A stretch of 64,000 bases of DNA from Candidatus Thiothrix anitrata (GTDB lineage Bacteria; Pseudomonadota; Gammaproteobacteria; Thiotrichales; Thiotrichaceae): assembly GCF_017901155.1 (NCBI RefSeq), contig NZ_CP072800.1, forward strand, positions 1,143,283 through 1,207,282. The letters run 5' to 3'. The notes below the pieces were generated by a model. It did not search any database. It was not told where the DNA came from and saw only the letters and a program-made list of their open reading frames with translations. This document shows, one piece after another, positions 13,172 to 23,201 of this stretch; position 1 is the first letter of the stretch; every line of letters starts with the position of its first letter. The translations under genes and the position numbers were made by a program.

Positions 13172-14917
13172 TTACGCTAAACCTTCGTTGCCATCCACAT
13201 TTTTTAGTTTCGGCGTATTCAGCTCAATCTTGCCAATGGTCTTTTTGTCGCGCAGGTAATCAGCGACTACTTCCCATATTTGCTTGTTCTTGGGTACTTC
13301 TTCCTGAACGCTTGCCCAGCCTGCCACGGGGTAGGTTTTTGCCGCATCCAGTGGTTTGCCATCCAGCATCATATCGGATACCCGCTCGCCCATTTTGGCA
13401 GTCGGGTCAAAGGTGAATTTCAAGCCACCGACGCGCACCATGTCGCCGCCTTGCTGGTAATAAGGGTCTTCGTTGAAGAGGTTATCTGCCACGTCTTCAA
13501 GGATGGTTTTTACCATTTCACCGGTCATTTCGTTACGTGTTACCGTGCCGTAAGTGATTGCGGTTTGGTCAGCAACGTGTTCAAACGTGATTGGCTGCCC
13601 CGGCAGGACGCTTGTGCCCCAACGGAAGCCCGGTGAAAACGCCATCGGTGCATCCAGCTCTTGCATCAGCGCGTCGCAGATCAATTGGTCGAAAGTACCG
13701 TTGAAATTGCCACGGCGGTATAGTACGTCATCACAGACCGCGAGTTCTTCCGCCAATTCTTTCTGGTACGGTTCACGGATTTTGTCGATGAGTGCCTGCA
13801 TGTCCTTGTTGGCTTCCAACAAGTTAGAGAATACCGGCAGTAATTTGTAACGGAAATCCGCGACTTTGCCGTCTTTGACATCCAGATCGAGTACGCCGAG
13901 GAATTTGCCGTTAGAGCCAGCATTCGTGACCAGCGTTTTGCCGCCTGCATTTTCTACCACTACCGGTTGGAATACGCCATCGTGGGTATGACCGCCCATA
14001 ATCGCGTCAATGCCAGTGACTTTGCTGGCCATTTTCAGGTCAACGTCCATGCCGTTGTGCGACAGCACGATAACTACTTTCGCGCCTTTGCTACGCGCAT
14101 CGTCAACCGCTTGTTGCATGTCAGAATCACGGATACCGAAGCTCCAATCAGCCACCATGTGACGTGGGTTGGCAACGGGTACGTAAGGGAATGCCTGCCC
14201 AACAATGGCCACTGGCACGCCGTTGATTTCTTTGATCACGAACGGTTCAAATACGCGCTCGTCAAAGTCATTGCTGAAAACGTTTTGCGCGACGAAATCA
14301 ATTTTGCCTGCGAAATCTTTCTCAACGATTTCTTTGACACGATCCGCGCCGAAGGTCATTTCCCAGTGCGGGGTCATGACATCTACGCCGAGGGCAAGCT
14401 GTGCGTCTACCATGTCTTGCGCGTTGGTTTTCAACGCTGTCCACGAACCTTGCCAAGTATCACCGCCGTCCAGCAGCAATGAGCCAGGGCGTTGCGCACG
14501 TACTTGGTCAACCAAGGTTTTCAGGTGGGCAAAACCGCCGACTTTGCCGTATTTTTTTGCGGCTTCAACGTAATCAATGTAGGTGAAAGCGTGCGCATCC
14601 ATCGTACCGGCTTCGATGCCGTACTTTTTCAGGAAGTGTTCGCCGACCAAGTGCGGCACTGCACCTTTCATGCTGCCGATACCCAGATTCACGTTCGGCT
14701 CGCGGAAGTAAATCGGTAATAATTGCGCGTGGCAGTCGGTGTAATGCATCAAGGATACATTGCCGAAGGCGGGCAGTTCATACGGGTTGTTGGGGGCTTT
14801 GACAGACGTTTTGTCGCCTTCTTTGGCGGCATCATCGGCGAAGGCGTTATTCAGGCTGAAACCGGCAACGCTGGCAGCCGCCAACATTTGCATAAATTCA
14901 CGACGGGTTAAACTCAC
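13172..14917 (-). CDS. soxB: thiosulfohydrolase SoxB
   Basis: Periplasmic dimanganese enzyme that hydrolyses the sulfonate from SoxY-bound S-thiosulfonate, releasing sulfate. The chosen start is a GTG at 14917 with a near-perfect ribosome binding site (GAGGAGAG, 6-7 bases upstream); it gives 581 residues starting MSLTRREFMQMLAAASVAG, a Tat signal with the twin arginine, as expected for a folded metalloprotein. The ATG at 14992 would bury the Tat motif. Metal-binding motifs of the 5'-nucleotidase-like fold are present: YTDCHAQL, LDGGDTWQGS, LSHNGMDVD and GGHTHD. It stands alone, divergent from the ECF sigma gene, with the rest of the sox genes 6 kb away. Confidence 0.95.
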   Translation of the reverse strand: MSLTRREFMQMLAAASVAGFSLNNAFADDAAKEGDKTSVKAPNNPYELPAFGNVSLMHYTDCHAQLLPIYFREPNVNLGIGSMKGAVPHLVGEHFLKKYGIEAGTMDAHAFTYIDYVEAAKKYGKVGGFAHLKTLVDQVRAQRPGSLLLDGGDTWQGSWTALKTNAQDMVDAQLALGVDVMTPHWEMTFGADRVKEIVEKDFAGKIDFVAQNVFSNDFDERVFEPFVIKEINGVPVAIVGQAFPYVPVANPRHMVADWSFGIRDSDMQQAVDDARSKGAKVVIVLSHNGMDVDLKMASKVTGIDAIMGGHTHDGVFQPVVVENAGGKTLVTNAGSNGKFLGVLDLDVKDGKVADFRYKLLPVFSNLLEANKDMQALIDKIREPYQKELAEELAVCDDVLYRRGNFNGTFDQLICDALMQELDAPMAFSPGFRWGTSVLPGQPITFEHVADQTAITYGTVTRNEMTGEMVKTILEDVADNLFNEDPYYQQGGDMVRVGGLKFTFDPTAKMGERVSDMMLDGKPLDAAKTYPVAGWASVQEEVPKNKQIWEVVADYLRDKKTIGKIELNTPKLKNVDGNEGLA

Positions 14918-14964: not shown

Positions 14965-14990
14965 TGACGGGGTACAGGTAAAAATATTCC
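14965..14990 (-). promoter_or_regulatory. ECF-type promoter candidate for soxB
   Basis: On the minus strand GGAAT (14986-14990), a 16-base spacer, then CGTCA (14965-14969). This fits the general ECF sigma pattern of a GGAA-type -35 and a CGTC-type -10. Transcription would start about 40 bases before the soxB GTG. A very similar sequence precedes the second soxY. The assignment to the adjacent ECF sigma is inference. Confidence 0.4.
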
Positions 14991-15007
14991 ATCTTTTTTG
15001 GAATATT
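14983..15007. promoter_or_regulatory. inverted repeat in the soxB / ECF sigma divergent promoter
   Basis: Perfect 9-bp arms AATATTCCA and TGGAATATT separated by TCTTTTT, in the 146-bp gap between the divergent soxB and sigma genes. Each arm presents GGAATATT outward, so it could be two back-to-back -35 elements or an operator for a dimeric regulator. Confidence 0.45.
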
Positions 15008-15063
15008 ACGGCGTTTTTCGGCATCATGTGCAATAGAACTGCTAGGAGACTTTAATACATAAC

Positions 15064-15603
15064 ATGTTTAGTCAGTATTTTCGCTTTAACCGTCTTGATC
15101 ATCAGTTGTCGGAACACCGCGCTAGGCTGCATCGTATGGCAGTGGCATGGTGTGGTGACAGTACGTTAGCGGACGATTTGGTGCAAGACACCCTTGCAAA
15201 AGCCTTGGAAAAACAAGAGCAGCTTAAAGATGAAGCGCGTTTGGGTGCGTGGTTGTACAAAATCCTGCACAACTGTTGGATGGAGCATTTACGCACCCAA
15301 AAGCCGACGCTGGACATTGACGAGATGGAGTTAACGTGTACGGATTGCCCCGAAAAACACTTCGCCGCTGATCAATTGGCAACGCAAGTGCGCATGGCGG
15401 TGGAGTCGCTGCCCATTAATCAATGCCAAGTGATGACTTTAGTGGATTTGGAAGGGTGCAGCTACGAACAAGTTGCTGCTATTCTCGACATTCCGGTAGG
15501 AACGGTGATGAGTCGCCTCAGCCGCGCCCGCGAAGCTATGAAAAAACGCCTGCAAGGCATACGCCAAACTGACAACGTTCACTATTTACGGAGAGTGAAA
15601 TGA
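15064..15603 (+). CDS. ECF-family RNA polymerase sigma factor
   Basis: 179-residue sigma-70 factor of the extracytoplasmic function type. Region 2 spans about residues 18-85 (LHRMAVAWCGDSTLADDLVQDTLAKAL, then LGAWLYKILHNCWMEHLR, the core-binding and -10 recognising parts) and region 4 about residues 118-165 (ALL ECF-like VESLPINQCQVM, YEQVAAILDIPVGTVMSRLSRAREAM, the helix-turn-helix for -35 recognition). A GGAG ribosome site precedes the ATG. Its stop overlaps the anti-sigma start (ATGA at 15600). It is divergent from soxB. The probable target set is itself and sox genes, judged from shared upstream motifs. Confidence 0.92.
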   Translation: MFSQYFRFNRLDHQLSEHRARLHRMAVAWCGDSTLADDLVQDTLAKALEKQEQLKDEARLGAWLYKILHNCWMEHLRTQKPTLDIDEMELTCTDCPEKHFAADQLATQVRMAVESLPINQCQVMTLVDLEGCSYEQVAAILDIPVGTVMSRLSRAREAMKKRLQGIRQTDNVHYLRRVK

Positions 15604-16292
15604 ACCTAGATCAGCTAACCATTCACGATCGCCTGCACGCCCTCGCAGACGGGCAATTGGATGCTGAACAAGCCAGCCTCGTGTTAGCTCAGGTGGAAAC
15701 TGACCAAGGGCTGCAAAAACAGTTGTGTGAAATCCAACGCATCAAACATCTGGTGAAATCGGCTTACCCTTTACCTGTTTTGCGTCAACCCGTGCGTCGC
15801 CCATCAGTATGGCAACAGGCAGCGATGGTCATGCTGACCTTCGGTCTCGTTTTTGTTGCCGGTGCAGGGAGCAGCCATTACGCGCCGAAATTCTGGCAAC
15901 CAGAAGGTTTGACGTTGGAAAATGCGGCAGCACACGACGACCGTTTCATCGTGTTTCTGGATTCACACGAGCCTGCCAAATTGGAAAAAGCCTTGGTGAA
16001 GGCTGAAAAACTGGCGCAACAAGTCGAGTCTAAAGATGGCAGTGTGTATGTTGTTACTAGTGCGGAAGGCATTGACTTATTGCGTCTGGGTGAAACTCGG
16101 CATGAAGGTCGTATTTTGCACATGAGCGAGCAATACCCGCACCTGAAATTTGTGGCGTGCAGTAATACGCTGTATTCCTTCAAACAACGTAACGAATTGG
16201 TCGAACTGGTCAATGACACCGAAGTTGCCCCATCCGCCGTGGAATTTGTGGTAAACCACATGCGCGATGGGTGGCGTTATATTGCGATTTGA
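15600..16292 (+). CDS. membrane anti-sigma factor fused to a DsrE-like domain
   Basis: 230 residues, coupled to the ECF sigma by a 4-bp overlap. Residues 1-55 (IHDRLHALADGQLDAEQASLVLAQ...) have the look of an anti-sigma domain without the zinc motif. One membrane segment lies at about 73-90 (AAMVMLTFGLVFVAGAG), putting the rest in the periplasm. Residues 114-230 fit the DsrE/DsrF/TusD-like fold: RFIVFLDSHEPAKLEKAL, VYVVTSAEGIDLL, LKFVACSNTL (Cys187) and the terminal VAPSAVEFVVNHMRDGWRYIAI, which aligns with VIPSGVAEAGRLQSQGYQLLKP of the secreted DsrE-like protein encoded at 17814. A sulfur-sensing role is inference. Its 3' end overlaps vapC by 16 bp. Confidence 0.8.
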   Translation: MNLDQLTIHDRLHALADGQLDAEQASLVLAQVETDQGLQKQLCEIQRIKHLVKSAYPLPVLRQPVRRPSVWQQAAMVMLTFGLVFVAGAGSSHYAPKFWQPEGLTLENAAAHDDRFIVFLDSHEPAKLEKALVKAEKLAQQVESKDGSVYVVTSAEGIDLLRLGETRHEGRILHMSEQYPHLKFVACSNTLYSFKQRNELVELVNDTEVAPSAVEFVVNHMRDGWRYIAI

Positions 16293-16711
16293 ATAGACTG
16301 CATTCCCAGCATTTTGGCGGCTAAGTTCAGACGTTTGTCGAAACAAGCAAACAATAGCGGTAATGGCGTTTGTTGCTGCAAATGCCGTGCTGCTGCGAGA
16401 TGCACGCTGTCATAGGCACGCAGGGAAAAGGCTTCCGCCAATTCTGCGGCACTTTGCAGTAAGCTCAGGTCAGTTTCGACTTGCAAATAATCGACCCAAT
16501 CCTCTGCGAATGCTTGTTTTAAGGCTTCAAAGGTGGGCGTGTCGACATCATTTTCACGGTGACGGCGTGCTAATGCTGCATGAAATTCAACAAAGGCAAT
16601 TTGGTGCGAGGCGATAACGTCCGCTTGCTGTTGAAGTTCGTTAACCACATCAGAATAGGCTTCCTGCACATACAACTTCACGAGGGCGGAAGTGTCCAGA
16701 TAGAGCAGCAT
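16277..16711 (-). CDS. vapC: PIN-domain ribonuclease toxin (VapC type)
   Basis: 144 residues with the PIN fold. The acidic metal-binding residues are visible: Asp6 in LLYLDTSALVKLY, a Glu in the AFVEFHAAL helix, and Asp in LRAYDSVHLAAA, with a further Asp in ACFDKRL near the C-terminus. VapC toxins cleave tRNA or rRNA when the antitoxin is lost. The start ATG overlaps the antitoxin stop (TAATG), the standard antitoxin-first arrangement. The 3' end overlaps the anti-sigma gene on the other strand by 16 bp, which suggests the pair was inserted or eroded up to that point. Confidence 0.88.
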   Translation of the reverse strand: MLLYLDTSALVKLYVQEAYSDVVNELQQQADVIASHQIAFVEFHAALARRHRENDVDTPTFEALKQAFAEDWVDYLQVETDLSLLQSAAELAEAFSLRAYDSVHLAAARHLQQQTPLPLLFACFDKRLNLAAKMLGMQSIQIAI

Positions 16712-16965
16712 TAGCGCATTTCCAACACAGTATCGGCAAGGGATTTGCCGCGTAATGTGGGGCGTGGTCGATTCAGAGTGGGTTTTTTACCCAGCCAATG
16801 CACATTGGGAATATTGCCCAGCAATGTTTGAGAAGCAGGAGCGGGGACCGAGATGAGACGTGCTACCACCTGTTTGTAGGAAGTCAGCCATACGGTATGC
16901 CCCGCCTGTGCTTGTCGGATGTAATGGGAGGGGTTTACTTTTAGTTCACGAATAGAGATTTGCAT
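16711..16965 (-). CDS. antitoxin of the Phd/YefM type (VapB partner)
   Basis: 84 residues. The N-terminus MQISIRELKVNPSHYIRQAQAGHTVWLTSYKQVVARL is the Phd/YefM DNA-binding fold; the C-terminal tail with NRPRPTLRGKSLADTVLEMR is the disordered toxin-binding part (the RGKSLADTVLEMR ending is common in antitoxins of PIN toxins). Such antitoxins repress their own operon. The stop overlaps the vapC start. Confidence 0.88.
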   Translation of the reverse strand: MQISIRELKVNPSHYIRQAQAGHTVWLTSYKQVVARLISVPAPASQTLLGNIPNVHWLGKKPTLNRPRPTLRGKSLADTVLEMR

Positions 16966-17022: not shown

Positions 17023-17745
17023 CTAGAGCTTTTTACTGGTGGACTCACCCCAATCCAAATTGTTGCAAGCCTCGCACTCTTCTTTTAGCACGCCCATCCA
17101 GACTAACAAGGAGTGCACTTTGCAACCCGCGCAGAAACCCAATACAGTTTCCATCCACATAAATCCAAAACAGACCCACACCATTACCAGTGGAATCCAG
17201 GACGGCATGTAGTTGTAGGTTTCAGGAAGTATTTCGCTGCCCGCAACTGCATTCACCCAGCCCGCGAAGATTTCGGGGTTAAAGAAAATCAAACAAGTAA
17301 TGATAAAACTTGCGCCAATCGACCAAGCAAAACGTTTGGGCAATAACGGCTTCCACACCGGGCGTAGATTTTTAGCCAGAAAGCTGCTGAGCAAAATGGT
17401 GGGGGAAAGCCGTGAAGTGCTTACAAACATGCCGGAAATCATTTCAAACAGCGCGTAAAGCAGCACCAACGTTTGTGTACTGTAGTCAAAGGTGCGCTTG
17501 ATCGCTTCGACATTATACAAAATATGCCCATCAAAATCGGTTTCGAGCGTGTCGGTAATTACCGCGCCCGTGATTACCCAATCTGAACCGAAGATAGCAT
17601 CAAACAGCGTGAACGCCATGTAGATGGGAATCGCAAGCAATAGCCCCGCGCGGATGCGCACAGCGGTGTCGTTAATGTAGGGGCTGACTTCGTTGCGGTC
17701 ACGAAACCACAGATCCTTGCAGCAAGTGATGATCCAATTGACCAT
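17023..17745 (-). CDS. DUF4395 membrane protein
   Basis: 240 residues with about four membrane segments. Family landmarks are INDTAVRIRAGLLL near residue 24, LPKRFAWSIGASF in the middle and METVLGFCAGCKVHSLLVW near the end. The CxxC (FCAGC) and a second CEAC close to the C-terminus (EECEACNNLD) are conserved-looking cysteine pairs near the membrane surface. DUF4395 proteins have no established function; they often sit beside thiol or sulfur genes, and here the gene follows the DsrE-like gene by 68 bp. A part in moving sulfur or reductant across the membrane is a guess. Confidence 0.75.
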   Translation of the reverse strand: MVNWIITCCKDLWFRDRNEVSPYINDTAVRIRAGLLLAIPIYMAFTLFDAIFGSDWVITGAVITDTLETDFDGHILYNVEAIKRTFDYSTQTLVLLYALFEMISGMFVSTSRLSPTILLSSFLAKNLRPVWKPLLPKRFAWSIGASFIITCLIFFNPEIFAGWVNAVAGSEILPETYNYMPSWIPLVMVWVCFGFMWMETVLGFCAGCKVHSLLVWMGVLKEECEACNNLDWGESTSKKL

Positions 17746-17813: not shown

Positions 17814-18389
17814 TTACGGCTTCAGTAACTGATAGCCTTGCGATTGCAAACGGCCTGCTTCCGCTACGCCAGAGGGAATCACGTCTTCTGGTTTGGCATC
17901 GTACAAGTCAGCAAACTTGATTTTGCGCCCGGTCAACGTGTTGTAGCAGATTTGGAATTTCACGCCTTTTTCTTTCAATTCCGCGATTTTAGCGGGCAAT
18001 TTAGAATCAGCATTCATTTCAACCTGCTTGGCAGTAGTCAGCAAGCCTAAACCATCGCCATTCATCACGACAATTGCGTCGGTTTTCTTGCCGGTTTGCT
18101 CCAGTGCTTTGATGTAATTACTGACATTGCCCAGCACGCCGAGGTATTTCTTCTCGTCACCTTCCATTGTGACGTGAACTACCACTTTTTCAGCACCGGC
18201 GTAATAGTCGTCAGCGACTTTGGGCGCAGGCACGCCGGGGTCAAACTTGGCTTCGGCGGGCTTAGCATCCGCAGCCGGGGCAGCGGCGGCTTCTGCTTTC
18301 GGTTCAGCCGGTTTGGCATCGTCAGCGATTGCAAGACCAGCAACGCTGCTGGCAGTCATCAATAAACCCAGTATGATTGGTTTTAACAT
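17814..18389 (-). CDS. periplasmic DsrE-like protein
   Basis: 191 residues. A signal peptide (about residues 1-22, LGLLMTASSVAGLAIA) is followed by an Ala/Pro/Lys-rich linker (residues 23-60, repeats of AKPAE) and a DsrE/DsrF-like domain at 66-191: EKVVVHVTMEGDEKKYLGVLGNVSNYIKAL, IVVMNGDGLGLL, VKFQICYNTL with Cys148, and VIPSGVAEAGRLQSQGYQLLKP. Family members bind or relay sulfane sulfur through this Cys; for the secreted subgroup the function is not established. It is transcribed with the SoxH-like genes upstream and DUF4395 downstream. The same domain is fused to the anti-sigma factor at 15600. Confidence 0.85.
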   Translation of the reverse strand: MLKPIILGLLMTASSVAGLAIADDAKPAEPKAEAAAAPAADAKPAEAKFDPGVPAPKVADDYYAGAEKVVVHVTMEGDEKKYLGVLGNVSNYIKALEQTGKKTDAIVVMNGDGLGLLTTAKQVEMNADSKLPAKIAELKEKGVKFQICYNTLTGRKIKFADLYDAKPEDVIPSGVAEAGRLQSQGYQLLKP

Positions 18390-18438: not shown

Positions 18439-19389
18439 TTATTGCATTCCTTCCTGTTCCAGCGACAGGTAGACCTGATAAGCATTGCGGCGGTTGGCTT
18501 CTTCAAATGCAGGCAGGTGGATGAAATCGCCCCAGTCGGTGGCGGCATAAGCTTCGTCAAACGGGGTCATGTCTTCGACGGCTTTGCCCATGGTTTCACG
18601 CAGGAATTCGATGTATTGCACCGTGGTTTTAATCACTTCCTGCGGTTTTTTGGACATCGGGCCGTGACCCGGAACCATCGCAGTGAGCTTGCCTTGCGCC
18701 ATGTCTTTTAAGCGTTCCAGCCAGATTTTGGTATTGGCATCGCCAACGAAAGGCACGCGCCCTTCAAAAATCAAATCACCAATTAGCAACACGCCATCCG
18801 GCTCGACCAGCACACTTTGGTCGCCATCAGAATGCGCTTTGCCATTGAAAATGAGTTTGAGGGTGACACCACCAAGGGTGATTTCTTCATTGCCATCGAC
18901 GTAACGGTCGGGTTTAACCAAGCGGGTGTCAGCATTGACCCACGGGGCAAGGTCTGCGCGCCGCGAAGCCAGCAAGGTTTCGGCGTTTTCAGAATTGAGA
19001 TATTCCTCAGCACCGGCAGGGGCGATAATTTCCGCGCCTAAGTCTTTGAATACTTGTAAGCCGTAAATATGGTCGGCGTGATAATGGCTGACAATGACCT
19101 TTTTCACCGGCTTGTCGGTCACTTTTTTGAGCTTTTTCAGGAATAATTGCGCCAAGGCTGGTGTGCCAAGGGTATCGAATAAAATTACGCCTTCGTCAGT
19201 GACAATCACCGCAGCGTTGGAAATGAAACCGTGGTTTTGGGTGGCAGCACCCGGTGCGCCTTGCACATAGTAAACGTGTTCGGAAACTTTGATCAGCTCC
19301 ATCACGACGGGGGGCAGTTTGTCATCAGCATGGGCATTCAGCCCGATGGTTAAACAGAGAAGGGTAAAGAATGCGGCGATAACGCGCAT
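18439..19389 (-). CDS. SoxH-like periplasmic metallo-beta-lactamase-fold hydrolase, downstream copy
   Basis: 316 residues. Signal peptide MRVIAAFFTLLCLTIGLNAHA, then a metallo-beta-lactamase fold with zinc-binding HYHADH (after VSHY), GKAHSDGD, LIGDLIFEG and PGHGPMS. Similar proteins near sox genes are called SoxH or quinoprotein-relay zinc hydrolases; the substrate is not known. The ribosome site GGAGG precedes the ATG. It is about 90 percent identical in DNA to the gene just upstream (19350-20429), a tandem duplication. This copy has the normal end, ...SLEQEGMQ and TAA. Confidence 0.85.
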   Translation of the reverse strand: MRVIAAFFTLLCLTIGLNAHADDKLPPVVMELIKVSEHVYYVQGAPGAATQNHGFISNAAVIVTDEGVILFDTLGTPALAQLFLKKLKKVTDKPVKKVIVSHYHADHIYGLQVFKDLGAEIIAPAGAEEYLNSENAETLLASRRADLAPWVNADTRLVKPDRYVDGNEEITLGGVTLKLIFNGKAHSDGDQSVLVEPDGVLLIGDLIFEGRVPFVGDANTKIWLERLKDMAQGKLTAMVPGHGPMSKKPQEVIKTTVQYIEFLRETMGKAVEDMTPFDEAYAATDWGDFIHLPAFEEANRRNAYQVYLSLEQEGMQ

Positions 19390-20429
19390 GAGTCCTCCGG
19401 TAAAGCGTGACAGTTGGGGGCGTGTGTGGGGCAGTGATCAGTGGTTATGGTTGTGGTAGAGACGCAAAATTTTGCGTCGGGTCTCATTCCTTCCTGTTCC
19501 AGCGACAAGTAAACCTGATAGGCATTGCGGCGGTTGGCTTCGTCAAAAGCGGGCAGATGGATGAAATCACCCCAGTCGGTGGCGGCATACGCTTCGTCAA
19601 ACGAGGTCATGTCTTCAACCGCCTTGCCCATGGTTTCACGCAGGAATTCGATGTATTGGACAGTGGTTTTAATCACTTCCTGCGGGTTTTTGGACATGGG
19701 GCCGTGACCGGGAACCATTGCGGTGAGTTTGCCTTGTGCCATGTCTTTTAAGCGTTCCAGCCATATTTTGGTATTGGCATCGCCAACGAAGGGGACGCGC
19801 CCTTCAAAAATCAGATCGCCAATCAGCAATACGCCATCCGGCTCAACCAGCACGCTTTGATCGCCGTCAGAATGCGCTTTGCCGTTGAAAATCAGTTTGA
19901 TGGTGACACCGCCGAGGGTGATTTCTTCATTGCCATCGACATAACGGTCGGGTTTAACCAAGCGGGTGTCAGCATTCACCCAGGGGGCAAGGTCTTCACG
20001 GCGTGAGGCCAGCAGGGTTTCGGCGTTTTCAGAATTGAGGTATTCCTCAGCACCAGCGGGGGCGATGATTTCCGCCCCCAAATCTTTAAAGACTTGCAAG
20101 CCGTAAATATGGTCGGCGTGGTAGTGGCTGACAATGACCTTTTTCACCGGTTTGTCGGTTATCTTTTTGAGCTTTTGCAGGAATAATTGCGCCAAGGCAG
20201 GCGTGCCAAGGGTGTCGAACAGCACCACGCCTTCGTCAGTGACAATGGCTGCGGCGTTGGAAATGAAACCGTGGTTTTGCGTGGCTGCGCCGGGTGCGCC
20301 TTGCACGTAGTACACGTGTTCGGAAACTTTAAGCAGCTCCATCACGACAGGTGGAAGGTTGTCGTCAGCATGGGCATTCAGCCCCAGTGTTAAACAGAGA
20401 GTGGCGAAAAATGCGGCAATGATGCGCAT
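19350..20429 (-). CDS. SoxH-like periplasmic metallo-beta-lactamase-fold hydrolase, upstream copy with extended tail
   Basis: 359 residues, with the same signal peptide and zinc motifs (HYHADH, GKAHSDGD, PGHGPMS) as its neighbour. Up to SLEQEGM the two proteins are nearly identical, but here the stop codon has been replaced: a palindromic repeat (19456-19478) starts right after that point and the frame runs on for about 43 residues (RPDAKFCVSTT...), through the intergenic space and 40 bp into the next gene. The tail has no relation to the family and contains three extra Cys. A matching palindrome (20482-20509) lies in front of the gene, so the copy is bracketed by the same element. Start ATG has a GGAGG ribosome site. 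Confidence 0.82.
   Translation of the reverse strand: MRIIAAFFATLCLTLGLNAHADDNLPPVVMELLKVSEHVYYVQGAPGAATQNHGFISNAAAIVTDEGVVLFDTLGTPALAQLFLQKLKKITDKPVKKVIVSHYHADHIYGLQVFKDLGAEIIAPAGAEEYLNSENAETLLASRREDLAPWVNADTRLVKPDRYVDGNEEITLGGVTIKLIFNGKAHSDGDQSVLVEPDGVLLIGDLIFEGRVPFVGDANTKIWLERLKDMAQGKLTAMVPGHGPMSKNPQEVIKTTVQYIEFLRETMGKAVEDMTSFDEAYAATDWGDFIHLPAFDEANRRNAYQVYLSLEQEGMRPDAKFCVSTTTITTDHCPTHAPNCHALPEDSCALSPHSLPFSV
19456..19485. repeat. palindromic repeat element, copy A
   Basis: Contains the perfect palindrome GACGCAAAATTTTGCGTC (19461-19478) with outer arms GTAGA and GGGTCTC that are now imperfect. It sits exactly where the stop codon of the SoxH-like gene should be. The same core recurs at 20482-20509. 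Confidence 0.75.
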
Positions 20430-20529: not shown

Positions 20530-20838
20530 TTACGCTACATCAGCTTCGGCAGAGTCTTTCTCGCCTTTGTTATCAGTCCAAGCAAGCTTGAGCTTGTCAC
20601 CGGTTTTGCCTTTGTAACTGAATGCGAGGTACGGGTTCTTGGAAACGGAGCCACCCCAGTTGGCGGTGAGTACAGTTTTGTCACCGGCAGTCACGATGAT
20701 TTCTTTAATGAAATGTGCCGGAACCAGTTCGCCAGTTTTTTTATCTTTGCGCTGTCCGGTTTCCATTGGATGGGTCATCAGAGCCTTGACGCTGACGCTA
20801 TCGCCGTCGACTTTGGCTTTAAGTTTAATGCTAGACAT
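20530..20838 (-). CDS. soxZ: sulfur oxidation carrier subunit SoxZ, second copy
   Basis: 102-residue partner of SoxY; the SoxYZ complex carries the sulfur substrate through the periplasmic Sox cycle. The protein begins MSSIKLKAKVDGDSVSVKAL, keeps THPMETG and the ANWGGSVSKNPYLAF block typical of SoxZ, and lacks a signal peptide because it is co-exported with SoxY. It differs from the other SoxZ (22388) by one residue (Thr instead of Ala in YKGKTGDK). It follows soxY by 16 bp. Confidence 0.95.
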   Translation of the reverse strand: MSSIKLKAKVDGDSVSVKALMTHPMETGQRKDKKTGELVPAHFIKEIIVTAGDKTVLTANWGGSVSKNPYLAFSYKGKTGDKLKLAWTDNKGEKDSAEADVA

Positions 20839-20854
20839 ATGTGTTCTCCCCTAA

Positions 20855-21310
20855 TTAACCGCCGCAGCCGCCGATGGTGACTTTGACTTCCTGTTTTGCT
20901 GAATAGGCTTTATCGCCTGCTTTAACCAACGCGATAACGTTGGCAGTCTTACCCATTTTGATACGGGTAGAAGCAGTAGGGTTAGCACCTTCACCGAGGA
21001 TGAAGACAGCAGCCAGTGGTGTTGGGTTGCCGTCGACTAACAGGCTGATTTCTTTCACGTCAGCGATAGTGGTAGTCACTTCAACCGGTACAACCGCACC
21101 GTTTTCAGCGATTTCAGGGGCTTTAATGGTAATGTCTTTCGACTCTTCCGGGGTAACGGCCATTGCTTTGAGTGCGTCGTCCATAGACTTGGCATCAAAT
21201 GCACCGCCGCCTTCAGCCATAACCATACTAGGAGTCAGCAAACCTGCGCTGACCGCAAGACCAGCCGCACCGGCTGCCAATGTGCCTTGCAAAAATGTTC
21301 TGCGTTTCAT
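20855..21310 (-). CDS. soxY: sulfur oxidation carrier subunit SoxY, second copy
   Basis: 151-residue substrate carrier. The twin-arginine signal (KRRTFLQGTLAAGAAGLAVSAG) exports the folded SoxYZ complex, and the C-terminal GGCGG carries Cys149, to which thiosulfate is attached by SoxAX. The protein is identical to the copy at 22713. It has its own upstream region: a terminator (21464-21489) separates it from soxA, and a promoter-like GGAATATT motif lies about 110 bp before the ATG. Confidence 0.95.
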   Translation of the reverse strand: MKRRTFLQGTLAAGAAGLAVSAGLLTPSMVMAEGGGAFDAKSMDDALKAMAVTPEESKDITIKAPEIAENGAVVPVEVTTTIADVKEISLLVDGNPTPLAAVFILGEGANPTASTRIKMGKTANVIALVKAGDKAYSAKQEVKVTIGGCGG

Positions 21311-21400
21311 AATTCCTCTCTACAACGTGTTGTCATACTTACGGTGTTGTTAGTATTGCATAAGCTTTGCGCCTAGCAGATACCAACTCACTCTCGGTTA

Positions 21401-21426
21401 GACGCGTAAACGGCTAAGAATATTCC
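21401..21426 (-). promoter_or_regulatory. ECF-type promoter candidate for the second soxYZ
   Basis: On the minus strand GGAAT (21422-21426), a 17-base spacer, then CGTC (21401-21404). The first 13 bases, GGAATATTCTTAG, closely resemble GGAATATTTTTAC in front of soxB. The predicted transcript would have a leader of about 80 bases. This element is absent from the first soxYZ copy, which is read from soxX. Confidence 0.4.
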
Positions 21427-21463
21427 GTTTTTGTGAAAAATATTTATCAGAATCTGTGGCTCA

Positions 21464-21489
21464 TTAAAAACCCGGCCTCAGCCGGGTTT
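21464..21489 (-). terminator. terminator after soxA
   Basis: On the minus strand AAACCCGGC, loop TGAG, GCCGGGTTT, followed by TTAATG. The stem (21468-21489) is 9 bp and GC-rich. It lies 31 bp beyond the soxA stop and separates soxXYZA from the second soxYZ. Confidence 0.78.
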
Positions 21490-21520
21490 CTTCGATTGTC
21501 AGATCGAACGTAAGGTGAGC

Positions 21521-22375
21521 TTACTTGCGTGAGCCGGGGCCGTTCCATTCTTGACCGTTAGACATATAAGTCAGGAAGTATTCCAGTGCCTTATATTCAT
21601 CCCCTTGGTCTTTGAAACTGGCAGCGCGAACCATGGTGTTACAACCTGCAAAACGATCATGTAGTGTGCGAGTTTCACCCCAAGCCGAACGGTAAGTAGG
21701 CCAGTGAGTTACATGACCCAGTGCAGGACTAAGTAAATCCGCACGGATCATCTTGCCTGCATTGTTGGTGTGGCAATCCGCACAAGACATATTCAACTGA
21801 CCACGCTTAGCGTAGTAGAAGTTTTTGCCTTTCTCGTACCACTCAGCGGCTTTGCCTTCCGGTGTCGCGACTTCGATTTTGCTACCACGATTTTCCATTG
21901 CGATATACGCCATCAACTGTGCGATTTTGCCTTTGTTCAGTAACGGCTTGCCATCTTTGTTGGCAAAGCCTTCACCATCGCCATCCGTTTTGCACGCATT
22001 CAACGCGCCTTCCAGTGTGACAATGGTGTCTTTTTCTGCATCATACATGGGGTACTTGCTGCGCAGCGTTTTGATGTCGCCCATGCAATCAGCATACGTT
22101 TTACCATTTTTGAATGCTGTTTCCCAAATAGTCTTGCCTGCGTCAATATCAGGCTCGTAAGGAGGGAATTCTTCCATTGTCTGCCATTGTTCCTTCAGGT
22201 TCGCATCCAGTGCGTAAGCACCGTCTTTGAAGTCTGCGAACGGAACATCTTTAAAGGCTTCTTTAAAGTGGCCTTGAAAGGCAGTTAAATCCTCTGCCGG
22301 ACCCGCATGTGCTGTGCTGAATGCGGAAACTGCTAAAGCCAGTGCAACCGCTGCTGCTGTCAATACTTTTTTCAT
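21521..22375 (-). CDS. soxA: SoxA, c-type cytochrome subunit of the SoxAX thiosulfate-attaching enzyme
   Basis: Periplasmic subunit that with SoxX joins thiosulfate to the SoxY cysteine. 284 residues; signal peptide AAAVALALAVSAFSTAHA. Only one haem site is present, CADCH at residues 198-202, and the active-site Cys is Cys245 (RFAGCN). The N-terminal half has two cysteines (YADC and NAC) at the positions where dihaem SoxA has its first haem, so this is the single-haem type with a probable disulfide instead. It lies between the two soxYZ copies, 12 bp after the first soxZ. Confidence 0.94.
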   Translation of the reverse strand: MKKVLTAAAVALALAVSAFSTAHAGPAEDLTAFQGHFKEAFKDVPFADFKDGAYALDANLKEQWQTMEEFPPYEPDIDAGKTIWETAFKNGKTYADCMGDIKTLRSKYPMYDAEKDTIVTLEGALNACKTDGDGEGFANKDGKPLLNKGKIAQLMAYIAMENRGSKIEVATPEGKAAEWYEKGKNFYYAKRGQLNMSCADCHTNNAGKMIRADLLSPALGHVTHWPTYRSAWGETRTLHDRFAGCNTMVRAASFKDQGDEYKALEYFLTYMSNGQEWNGPGSRK

Positions 22376-22387
22376 GGAAACCTCCAG

Positions 22388-22696
22388 TTACGCTACATCA
22401 GCTTCGGCAGAGTCTTTCTCGCCTTTGTTGTCAGTCCAAGCAAGCTTGAGCTTGTCACCGGCTTTGCCTTTGTAACTGAATGCGAGGTACGGGTTCTTGG
22501 AAACGGAGCCACCCCAGTTGGCGGTGAGTACAGTTTTGTCACCGGCGGTCACGATGATTTCTTTAATGAAATGTGCCGGAACCAGTTCGCCAGTTTTTTT
22601 ATCTTTGCGCTGTCCGGTTTCCATTGGATGGGTCATCAGAGCCTTGACGCTGACGCTATCGCCGTCGACTTTGGCTTTAAGTTTAATGCTAGACAT
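22388..22696 (-). CDS. soxZ: sulfur oxidation carrier subunit SoxZ, first copy
   Basis: 102-residue SoxZ in the soxX-soxY-soxZ-soxA operon. Same features as the second copy, with Ala in YKGKAGDK. It binds SoxY and positions its flexible Cys arm. It is 16 bp after soxY and 12 bp before soxA, so the four genes are probably one transcript. Confidence 0.95.
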   Translation of the reverse strand: MSSIKLKAKVDGDSVSVKALMTHPMETGQRKDKKTGELVPAHFIKEIIVTAGDKTVLTANWGGSVSKNPYLAFSYKGKAGDKLKLAWTDNKGEKDSAEADVA

Positions 22697-22712
22697 ATGT
22701 GTTCTCCCCTAA

Positions 22713-23168
22713 TTAACCGCCGCAGCCGCCGATGGTGACTTTGACTTCCTGTTTTGCTGAATAGGCTTTATCGCCTGCTTTAACCAACGCGATAACGTTG
22801 GCAGTCTTACCCATTTTGATACGAGTAGAAGCAGTAGGGTTAGCACCTTCACCGAGGATGAAGACAGCAGCCAGTGGTGTTGGGTTGCCGTCGACTAACA
22901 GGCTGATTTCTTTCACGTCAGCGATAGTGGTCGTCACTTCGACCGGTACAACTGCACCGTTTTCAGCGATTTCAGGGGCTTTAATGGTAATGTCTTTGGA
23001 CTCTTCCGGGGTAACGGCCATTGCTTTGAGTGCGTCGTCCATAGACTTGGCATCAAATGCACCGCCGCCTTCAGCCATAACCATACTAGGAGTCAGCAAA
23101 CCTGCGCTGACCGCAAGACCAGCCGCACCGGCTGCCAATGTGCCTTGCAAAAATGTTCTGCGTTTCAT
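22713..23168 (-). CDS. soxY: sulfur oxidation carrier subunit SoxY, first copy
   Basis: 151 residues, identical in protein sequence to the second copy: Tat signal with RRTFLQ, IgSF-like body, and GGCGG end with the substrate Cys149. The start at 23168 was chosen to match the second copy and has a GAGAGGAAT ribosome site; an in-frame ATG at 23183 would add MERGI. It follows soxX by 33 bp. Confidence 0.95.
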   Translation of the reverse strand: MKRRTFLQGTLAAGAAGLAVSAGLLTPSMVMAEGGGAFDAKSMDDALKAMAVTPEESKDITIKAPEIAENGAVVPVEVTTTIADVKEISLLVDGNPTPLAAVFILGEGANPTASTRIKMGKTANVIALVKAGDKAYSAKQEVKVTIGGCGG

Positions 23169-23201
23169 AATTCCTCTCTCCAAAAAATCAGCGGGTTGCC
23201 A

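Follow-up and report, generated by a model that had tools for sequence, protein, structure and literature searches.

A 64,000-nucleotide stretch of the genome of Candidatus Thiothrix anitrata (contig NZ_CP072800.1, positions 1,143,283 to 1,207,282), referred to here as the window, encodes an extracytoplasmic function (ECF) sigma factor and, directly behind it, an anti-sigma factor with a DsrE-fold domain, the pair lying beside soxB. As far as the literature searched shows, this is a real, widespread, and apparently undescribed variant of ECF26-like signalling that is strongly linked to sulfur oxidation. The operon, the fold, the conservation of Cys187, the promoter-like motif and its placement, and the association with soxB come directly from sequence, model, or count. 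It is very likely that the sigma/anti-sigma pair controls sulfur-oxidation genes and probable that the system as a whole acts as a trans-envelope sulfur switch; that the DsrE domain itself reacts directly with a sulfur species is an even question. To our knowledge, how sulfur oxidisers sense extracytoplasmic reduced sulfur and induce sox genes is poorly known, and the pair amounts to a widespread two-gene candidate sulfur sensor for which a promoter motif, a set of predicted target genes, and a single residue for mutagenesis are at hand. A sequence-only reading of the same DNA had pointed to an ECF sigma factor and a DsrE-like anti-sigma factor beside soxB, and this observation is confirmed as a whole. 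In its interpretation, the DsrE fold, the predicted extracytoplasmic position of the C-terminal domain, and the link to sox are supported, and the novelty has to be narrowed, ECF control of sulfur oxidation being already known.

A membrane anti-sigma factor with a DsrE-fold domain

The genome that contains the window (G000) consists of one contig of 3.55 Mb. The sigma factor of 179 amino acids (aa) contains sigma regions 2 and 4 only (Pfam Sigma70_r2, E 7.6e-13 at residues 17-80; Sigma70_r4_2, E 1.6e-15 at residues 108-159), which, together with a length of ~180 aa, assigns it to the ECF (group 4) factors. Its gene shares a 4-nt overlap with that of the anti-sigma factor. The features of the pair, in window coordinates, are as follows.

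15064..15603, + strand: ECF sigma factor gene, 179 aa, ECF26-like (Pfam regions 2 and 4; similarity to RpoE6)
15600..16292, + strand: anti-sigma factor gene, 230 aa, with a predicted periplasmic DsrE-like domain (profile, fold, conservation in the genus)
15600..15764, + strand: N-terminal cytosolic anti-sigma domain, residues 1-55, three helices (Foldseek; match to EcfR6)
15807..15866, + strand: membrane helix, residues 70-89 (helix in the model; hydrophobic window, lysine and arginine bias)
15936..16289, + strand: predicted periplasmic DsrE-fold domain, residues 113-230 (profile and fold comparison)
16158..16160, + strand: codon of the invariant Cys187 (60/60 fused proteins)

An AlphaFold2 model of the anti-sigma factor, built from a 33-row alignment (mean predicted local distance difference test score, pLDDT, 82.3; predicted template modelling score, pTM, 0.54), has helices at residues 8-16, 22-34, 36-55, and 70-89, followed by an alpha/beta domain from ~113 to 230, in agreement with the N-terminal part, membrane segment, and C-terminal domain that had been proposed from the letters. 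When the N-terminal 66 residues were folded alone and compared with the PDB by Foldseek, 14 of the 17 matches were chains of sigma/anti-sigma complexes, with ChrR, RsiW, MucA, and SigK- and SigL-type partners (probability up to 0.98, E 1.1 and up), a list that is coherent despite the weak E-values. The count of lysine and arginine (K/R) is higher before the membrane helix than after it in 59 of 60 fused proteins, so that by the positive-inside rule the DsrE domain should be periplasmic, as the sequence-only reading had also supposed; the helix is weakly hydrophobic (mean Kyte-Doolittle <1.6) in 13 of the 60. With a cytosolic anti-sigma domain, one membrane helix, and an adjoining sigma gene, the protein has the make-up of a membrane anti-sigma factor, and its binding to the sigma factor is predicted.

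In fold comparison with VIA-align, residues 113-230 reach Z 16.4 against MTH1491 (1l1s), Z 11.9 against chain A of 2hy5 (DsrEFH), and Z 11.5 against chain B of 2d1p (TusBCD). A profile of the 33 rows finds 1l1s in the PDB at E 1.1e-14 with the cysteine aligned, and phmmer matches the anti-sigma factor to MTH1491 at E 2e-4. By fold (Z 16.4 and 11.9; profile E 1e-14), the domain thus belongs to the DsrE/DsrF-like superfamily, and the profile and structure comparison that had been suggested as a check returned the DsrE fold. The two outcomes that had been named as fatal to the proposal, a C-terminal domain with no DsrE-like fold or one that faces the cytosol, did not materialise. Pfam and NCBIfam name nothing above cut-off in this protein (three Pfam matches are sub-threshold, zf-HC2 at E 0.071 among them), and the Pfam DsrE family PF02635, judged by its gathering score, has no match to it at E up to 1; the DsrE assignment therefore relies on the profile and structural matches.

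All 60 fused proteins keep Cys187 and Trp225, which, together with the intact gene beside sigma and soxB in the genus loci described below, goes beyond chance; Gly224 is kept in 58. Cys187 is the only invariant cysteine column, Cys43 on the cytosolic side being present in 42 of the 60. The zinc anti-sigma (ZAS) family is marked by an HxxxCxxC zinc motif, and in RsrA sensing takes the form of cytosolic zinc-thiol redox chemistry. This motif is absent from the fused proteins (column 39 is variable, column 43 is cysteine only in the 42 proteins just mentioned, and column 46 is mostly arginine), making sensing of the RsrA type unlikely.

The sequence-only reading had also aligned the C-terminal domain with the secreted DsrE-like protein encoded at 17814. 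The cysteines do align, and the match is weak (BLASTP E 0.006, 25% identity over 71 aa); the supposedly shared closing motif amounts to a loose resemblance between QGYQLLKP of the secreted protein and GWRYIAI. In a tree of 98 domains (60 fused, 38 standalone) that draws on few columns and a midpoint root, the two kinds form two groups with one label change (support 99/97), which fits a single origin of the fusion, and the secreted DsrE of the window lies outside the fused group. This separation speaks against the fused domain having arisen as a recent copy of the secreted DsrE next door, and that explanation was discarded. Among the 38 standalone DsrE proteins from fusion neighbourhoods, 37 have a hydrophobic N-terminal stretch and all 38 keep a cysteine in the matching region.

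Distribution and the conserved module

The fusion is present in 14 of 15 genus relatives, and in the resulting 15 genus loci (14 relatives and this genome), the gene is intact and is adjoined by both the sigma gene and soxB. Close relatives of this genome are Thiothrix caldifontis, T. fructosivorans, T. lacustris, and Ca. T. singaporensis. In the class sample, a full-length fusion occurs in at least 66 of 369 genomes, from 41 families. Carriers with names, found by means of an alignment from the window's clade, include Thiothrix, Thiolapillus, Sedimenticola, and Thiobacillus (T. thioparus DSM 505 and an assembled genome labelled T. denitrificans), and further carriers are several bins under other or no labels. 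A soxB gene over the curated cut-off is present in 62 of the 66 fusion genomes vs 86 of the 303 others (odds ratio 39, Fisher p 3e-24), a comparison in which the rows of 144 of the 148 genomes over the cut-off were counted and whose p-value overstates independence, as the families are related. The four fusion genomes counted as lacking soxB are G192 and G351, both with strong soxB matches that were not among the rows counted, G160, with a partial match below the cut-off, and G117. In a phylum sample of 398 genomes searched at E up to 1e-20, full-length fusions occur in three, this genome and two others of its class, and in the other classes, matches start no earlier than profile position 62 and lack the anti-sigma domain; Campylobacterota, including Arcobacter butzleri, lie outside this sample. 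No plasmid record matches the anti-sigma protein at E up to 1e-3.

A search for ECF sigma genes next to anti-sigma-DsrE fusions, the second check that had been suggested, showed that each of the 86 distinct fusion loci has a sigma gene ahead of the fusion. In 83, a profile search of called open reading frames (ORFs) places it immediately upstream, and in the other three (L108, L144, L152), it was detected by tblastn; this census leaves out L118, L119, and L131, which are without a full fusion. A standalone DsrE gene lies within 4 kb in at least 58 of the 86 loci, divergent upstream in 42 and downstream in the same direction in 13, and a Porin_O_P-like gene lies divergent upstream in at least 35, together with DsrE in 32. 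Both counts are lower bounds, as illustrated by the DsrE gene of L135, which was found by tblastn and missed by the profile. The common order of the module is porin <- DsrE, then sigma -> anti-sigma. In Thiothrix, the divergent position is taken by soxB instead of DsrE and porin, and the other side of the module is occupied, here and in several relatives, by a gene for a secreted DsrE together with a DUF4395 gene. In two loci, L091 (8081-12536) and L096 (7559-11948), the sigma/anti-sigma pair is duplicated in tandem with a DsrE gene at each end.

A promoter-like motif before the sigma operon and sox genes

The ECF26 promoter consensus is GGAATA/GT, and the mapped rpoE4 promoter of Sinorhizobium meliloti reads GGAATA-N16-CGTC (PMC6180224). 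A motif that agrees with the consensus given in that source, GGAATA-N14..18-C(A/G)TC, is present in 71 of the 83 distinct sigma upstream regions when the 200 bp before the gene are scanned (shuffle mean 0.12, maximum 2), with a spacing of 16 in 62, 15 in 8, and 14 in 1, and with CGTC in 44 and CATC in 27 as the second element. The reversed pattern occurs in none of the 83 regions. Scanned in the divergent direction over the same 200 bp, 46 of the 83 regions have the motif, compared with a mean of 0.14 and a maximum of 2 for shuffles. Sorted by locus type over 300 bp, it is found in 37/43 (sigma direction) and 31/43 (divergent direction) of the divergent DsrE/porin loci, in 9/9 and 9/9 of the Thiothrix-type loci with divergent soxB, and in 26/31 and 8/31 of the other fusion loci. 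The sites in the window and the genes associated with them are listed here.

15000..15025, + strand: promoter-like site of the sigma/anti-sigma operon, GGAATA-N16-CATC (motif scan)
14966..14990, - strand: divergent promoter-like site of soxB, GGAATA-N15-CGTC (motif scan; 9/9 Thiothrix-type regions)
13172..14917, - strand: soxB (TIGR04486, E 7e-261; likely GTG start at 14917 behind GAGGAG)
21401..21426, - strand: promoter-like site before one soxYZ copy, GGAATA-N16-CGTC (motif scan; recurs in five relatives)
20530..21310, - strand: soxY (20855-21310) and soxZ (20530-20838), predicted targets (Pfam SoxY, SoxZ)

The window holds seven motif matches vs 0.65 expected: one each before the sigma gene, soxB, and soxYZ, and four that lie inside ORFs. 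The mechanical start of the soxB ORF, at 14992, would overlap the promoter-like site of soxB itself and is probably wrong, given that this site ends 48 bases before the GTG at 14917 with its GAGGAG ribosome site. The soxYZ site is also present in L134, L135, L138, L139, and L120, which are all of the loci where soxY was found among the nine other Thiothrix-type loci. These sites before the sigma, soxB, and soxYZ genes, in the window and in its relatives, support the link to sox drawn by the sequence-only reading.

The motif near soxB was compared between 40 of the 62 fusion-positive and 40 of the 86 fusion-negative genomes, taken roughly by soxB score; the sample passes over G217, G247, G036, G097, and lower-ranked genomes and leaves out G151, which has a partial fusion, and the stretches measured 5.6 to 11.8 kb, several ending at contig ends. 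Exact sites with a spacing of 15-16 occur in 16/40 fusion-positive vs 2/40 fusion-negative loci (p 0.0003), for totals of 25 sites in 408 kb and 5 in 444 kb, and the reversed pattern in 1 and 2 loci, respectively. Sites within ~410 nt before soxB or soxX are present in 12/40 vs 2/40 loci (p 0.006). Among the 16 positive loci, L214 has the sigma gene's own site only, and the sites of L223, L226, and L235 are not before soxB or soxX. One of the two fusion-negative loci with a site, from G426, is fragmented and comes from a family (f10) that has the fusion. As a separate observation, the motif at position 2023 of L235 stands before a Sulf_transp (PF04143) gene, whose product may import a sulfur compound and belong to the regulon.

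Relation to known ECF systems and sulfur sensors

Among the closest described systems are the ECF26 factors. Thiosulfate and taurine elicit a response of RpoE1 and RpoE4 in S. meliloti, for which sulfite has been suggested to be the signal (PMC3511301), and the reported RpoE4 targets include a sulfite oxidase operon; neither sox nor DsrE/porin genes are among the targets described in the accessible part of the source. The ECF26/EcfR systems and the pair in the window are alike in that the sigma gene is followed by the anti-sigma gene and in that an N-terminal anti-sigma domain, a membrane segment, and a periplasmic C-terminus make up the anti-sigma factor (PMC6180224, PMC3511301, as far as their accessible text goes). 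They differ at that C-terminus, which in the EcfR proteins is described as having some similarity to RsiW, whereas that of the window protein is DsrE-like. RpoE6 of S. meliloti scores 148 bits against a profile built from the 41 loci of the sigma cluster, with no other ECF groups as a control, and EcfR6 matches the anti-sigma profile at residues 5-55 only (E 7e-6). The S. meliloti sigma gene lies in a pSymA stretch and was taken as rpoE6 on the basis of two of the published RpoE6-type promoter sequences and a divergent gene that is subtilase-like by eye. Two anti-sigma proteins of the Methylobacterium type likewise match over the N-terminal and membrane part only, and from these partial matches it seems that the holding domain is shared and the sensing domain exchanged. 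In L204 and L205, on Methylorubrum/Methylobacterium plasmids, a related sigma gene adjoins an anti-sigma gene and a DUF305 gene, and in L205 a sulfite oxidase gene is also nearby.

A further ECF pair, sigma2/anti-sigma2 of A. butzleri, activates sox genes (PMC3445524); it differs in that, by locus numbers, it is not beside sox, and the accessible part of that source makes no mention of DsrE. With ECF26 factors linked to sulfite and thiosulfate and sox activated by an ECF factor in Arcobacter, control of sulfur metabolism by ECF factors is already known, and the remark in the sequence-only reading that it knew of no described system of this kind has to be narrowed: the apparent novelty lies in the DsrE-type sensor and in the conserved gene arrangement that surrounds it. 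No DsrE-type anti-sigma factor was found in the literature searched, whose coverage was partial, so that absence from print is not implied.

The closest solved relatives of the sensor domain, MTH1491 and ST0148 (1l1s, 2pd2), share the aligned cysteine and the GW.Y end; they are free-standing proteins of ~110 residues, deposited as hypothetical, without a membrane helix or an anti-sigma domain. DsrEFH and TusBCD have the same fold (Z 11.9 and 11.5, as above) and are cytoplasmic, hetero-oligomeric sulfur relays without a regulatory fusion. The regulators SqrR and SoxR and the MarR- and OxyR-type sensors switch sulfur-oxidation or detoxification genes. TspS/TspR (sigma54) do so as well (PMC12194929). 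As far as the accessible sources describe them, these regulators and the MarR- and OxyR-type sensors are two-component or DNA-binding systems, whereas the sensor in the window is a membrane anti-sigma factor.

Proposed mechanism and alternatives

For the probable trans-envelope switch, we propose that at rest the ECF26-like sigma factor would be kept at the membrane by the anti-sigma factor's N-terminal domain, as expected from the domain family and from ECF practice. The periplasmic DsrE-like domain would then detect reduced or sulfane-sulfur species, most likely via Cys187, which may become persulfidated; the signal could be polysulfide, sulfur derived from thiosulfate, or a carrier in persulfide form, for instance the secreted DsrE often encoded nearby. 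That the signal is a sulfur species is suggested by the DsrE fold, the cysteine, and the targets, and the step from the fold to a sulfane-sulfur receptor is an attractive one that we infer. Sensing may weaken the anti-sigma factor or expose it to proteolysis, and the freed sigma factor would read GGAATA-N15/16-C(A/G)TC promoters, raising its own operon and the sulfur-oxidation genes. The targets would be soxB and soxYZ in Thiothrix, the secreted DsrE and porin in many others, and soxX and soxB operons in some. The motifs before both operons point to positive feedback, and a motif before the switch operon as well as sulfur-oxidation genes suggests that external sulfur may act directly on gene expression through the pair. 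A sulfur-linked role is also offered for secreted DsrE proteins and an uncharacterised porin, and the pair could serve as a genetic sulfur biosensor.

A more far-reaching, and distinctly tentative, version would make the system a new kind of sulfur receptor in the envelope, with a sulfur-relay domain turned anti-sigma sensor. Here, sulfur would enter via the dedicated porin, be loaded on the secreted DsrE carrier, and be passed to Cys187, and the released sigma factor would turn on porin, carrier, and sox enzymes in a positive feedback loop. Such a loop would run across at least 41 families, mostly sulfur oxidisers, and would have been rewired directly onto soxB and soxYZ in Thiothrix.

Several results weigh against the proposed switch. 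The motif is missing from 12 of the 83 sigma upstream regions, no site stands immediately in front of the window's secreted DsrE gene, and 24 of the 40 fusion-positive soxB loci lack a site, an indication that direct control of sox is not universal. In each of the two fusion-negative loci with sites, a site precedes soxX, G117 carries the fusion without any soxB match, most fusion loci outside Thiothrix do not adjoin sox, and related rows in these comparisons are not independent. Across this genome, 22 of the 25 motif matches (6 for the reversed pattern) fall beyond the three sox and sigma sites, and as 20 of these 22 lie inside ORFs >150 aa, the pattern alone is not specific; the attempt to derive a regulon for the whole genome from the motif by itself was abandoned for the same reason. 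The remaining two matches stand before a secreted SH3-domain protein gene (L174 1501-2029; G000 C1:1131843) and before only a 70-aa ORF.

Four alternatives to direct sensing of reduced sulfur can be weighed against these data. The DsrE domain might be a docking site that reads the sulfur loading or the presence of a periplasmic partner, either the secreted DsrE or SoxYZ. DsrE-type proteins form oligomers, in line with the titles of 2hy5 (DsrEFH) and 2d1p ('heterohexameric TusBCD'), and the 58 of 86 loci with a standalone DsrE within 4 kb, as well as the cysteine kept in 38/38 standalone proteins, fit docking. It is nevertheless unlikely, as up to 28 of the 86 loci have no standalone DsrE within 4 kb (a figure that includes 5 loci with <2 kb upstream and genes that the profile misses), and conservation of the fused cysteine in 60/60 is more than docking alone needs.

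Sulfite sensing as proposed for RpoE1/RpoE4, with the DsrE domain binding or reacting with sulfite, draws on the promoter consensus and the sulfite/thiosulfate response of ECF26 in the accessible text of its sources (PMC3511301, PMC6180224) and on the related sigma gene near a sulfite oxidase gene in Methylobacterium. We regard it as quite unlikely, given that EcfR6 matches residues 5-55 only, so that the sensor half differs, and that the predicted targets are sox genes, DsrE, and porin; sulfite dehydrogenase genes were not searched for.

A general envelope sensor of thiol redox state or oxidants, with the sox link reflecting lifestyle rather than signal, would accord with the single invariant cysteine, with ECF16 NrsF being listed among the anti-sigma factors that respond through cysteines (PMC6180224, in its accessible part), and with a soxB association that could be confounded by ancestry. 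The sites before soxB or soxX in 12/40 fusion genomes and before soxB and soxYZ in Thiothrix speak against it, and only one cysteine column is invariant, the second, Cys43 (42/60), lying on the cytosolic side, and this possibility is very unlikely. Finally, it is scarcely credible that the DsrE domain is a degenerate relic and that the signal enters elsewhere, e.g., by general proteolysis of the anti-sigma factor: the failure of Pfam DsrE to reach the window protein is in its favour, but Cys187 and Trp225 are kept in 60/60 and Gly224 in 58/60, fusions are known from 41 families, and their DsrE domains are consistent with having arisen once.

Neighbouring genes of the window

Two further genes beside the module belong to the secreted DsrE arrangement.

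17814..18389, - strand: secreted DsrE-like protein, a possible partner (Pfam DsrE, E 1.1e-8)
17023..17745, - strand: DUF4395 membrane protein, adjoining the secreted DsrE gene (Pfam PF14340, E 2.6e-13)

In T. caldifontis (L134) and T. fructosivorans (L135), the DUF4395 gene lies almost directly behind the anti-sigma gene. In the window, the interval between these two genes is occupied by a PIN protein (Pfam E 3e-8) and a Phd/YefM-type partner that is below the Pfam cut-off (16277-16965, - strand), likely a toxin-antitoxin pair. Two nearly identical soxYZ copies stand on either side of soxA (20530-23183, - strand), and the motif site is found in front of only one of them, the copy behind soxA. 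Also beside the sox genes are two nearly identical, tandem genes for secreted metallo-beta-lactamase-like proteins (18439-20429, - strand), assigned to that family by eye.

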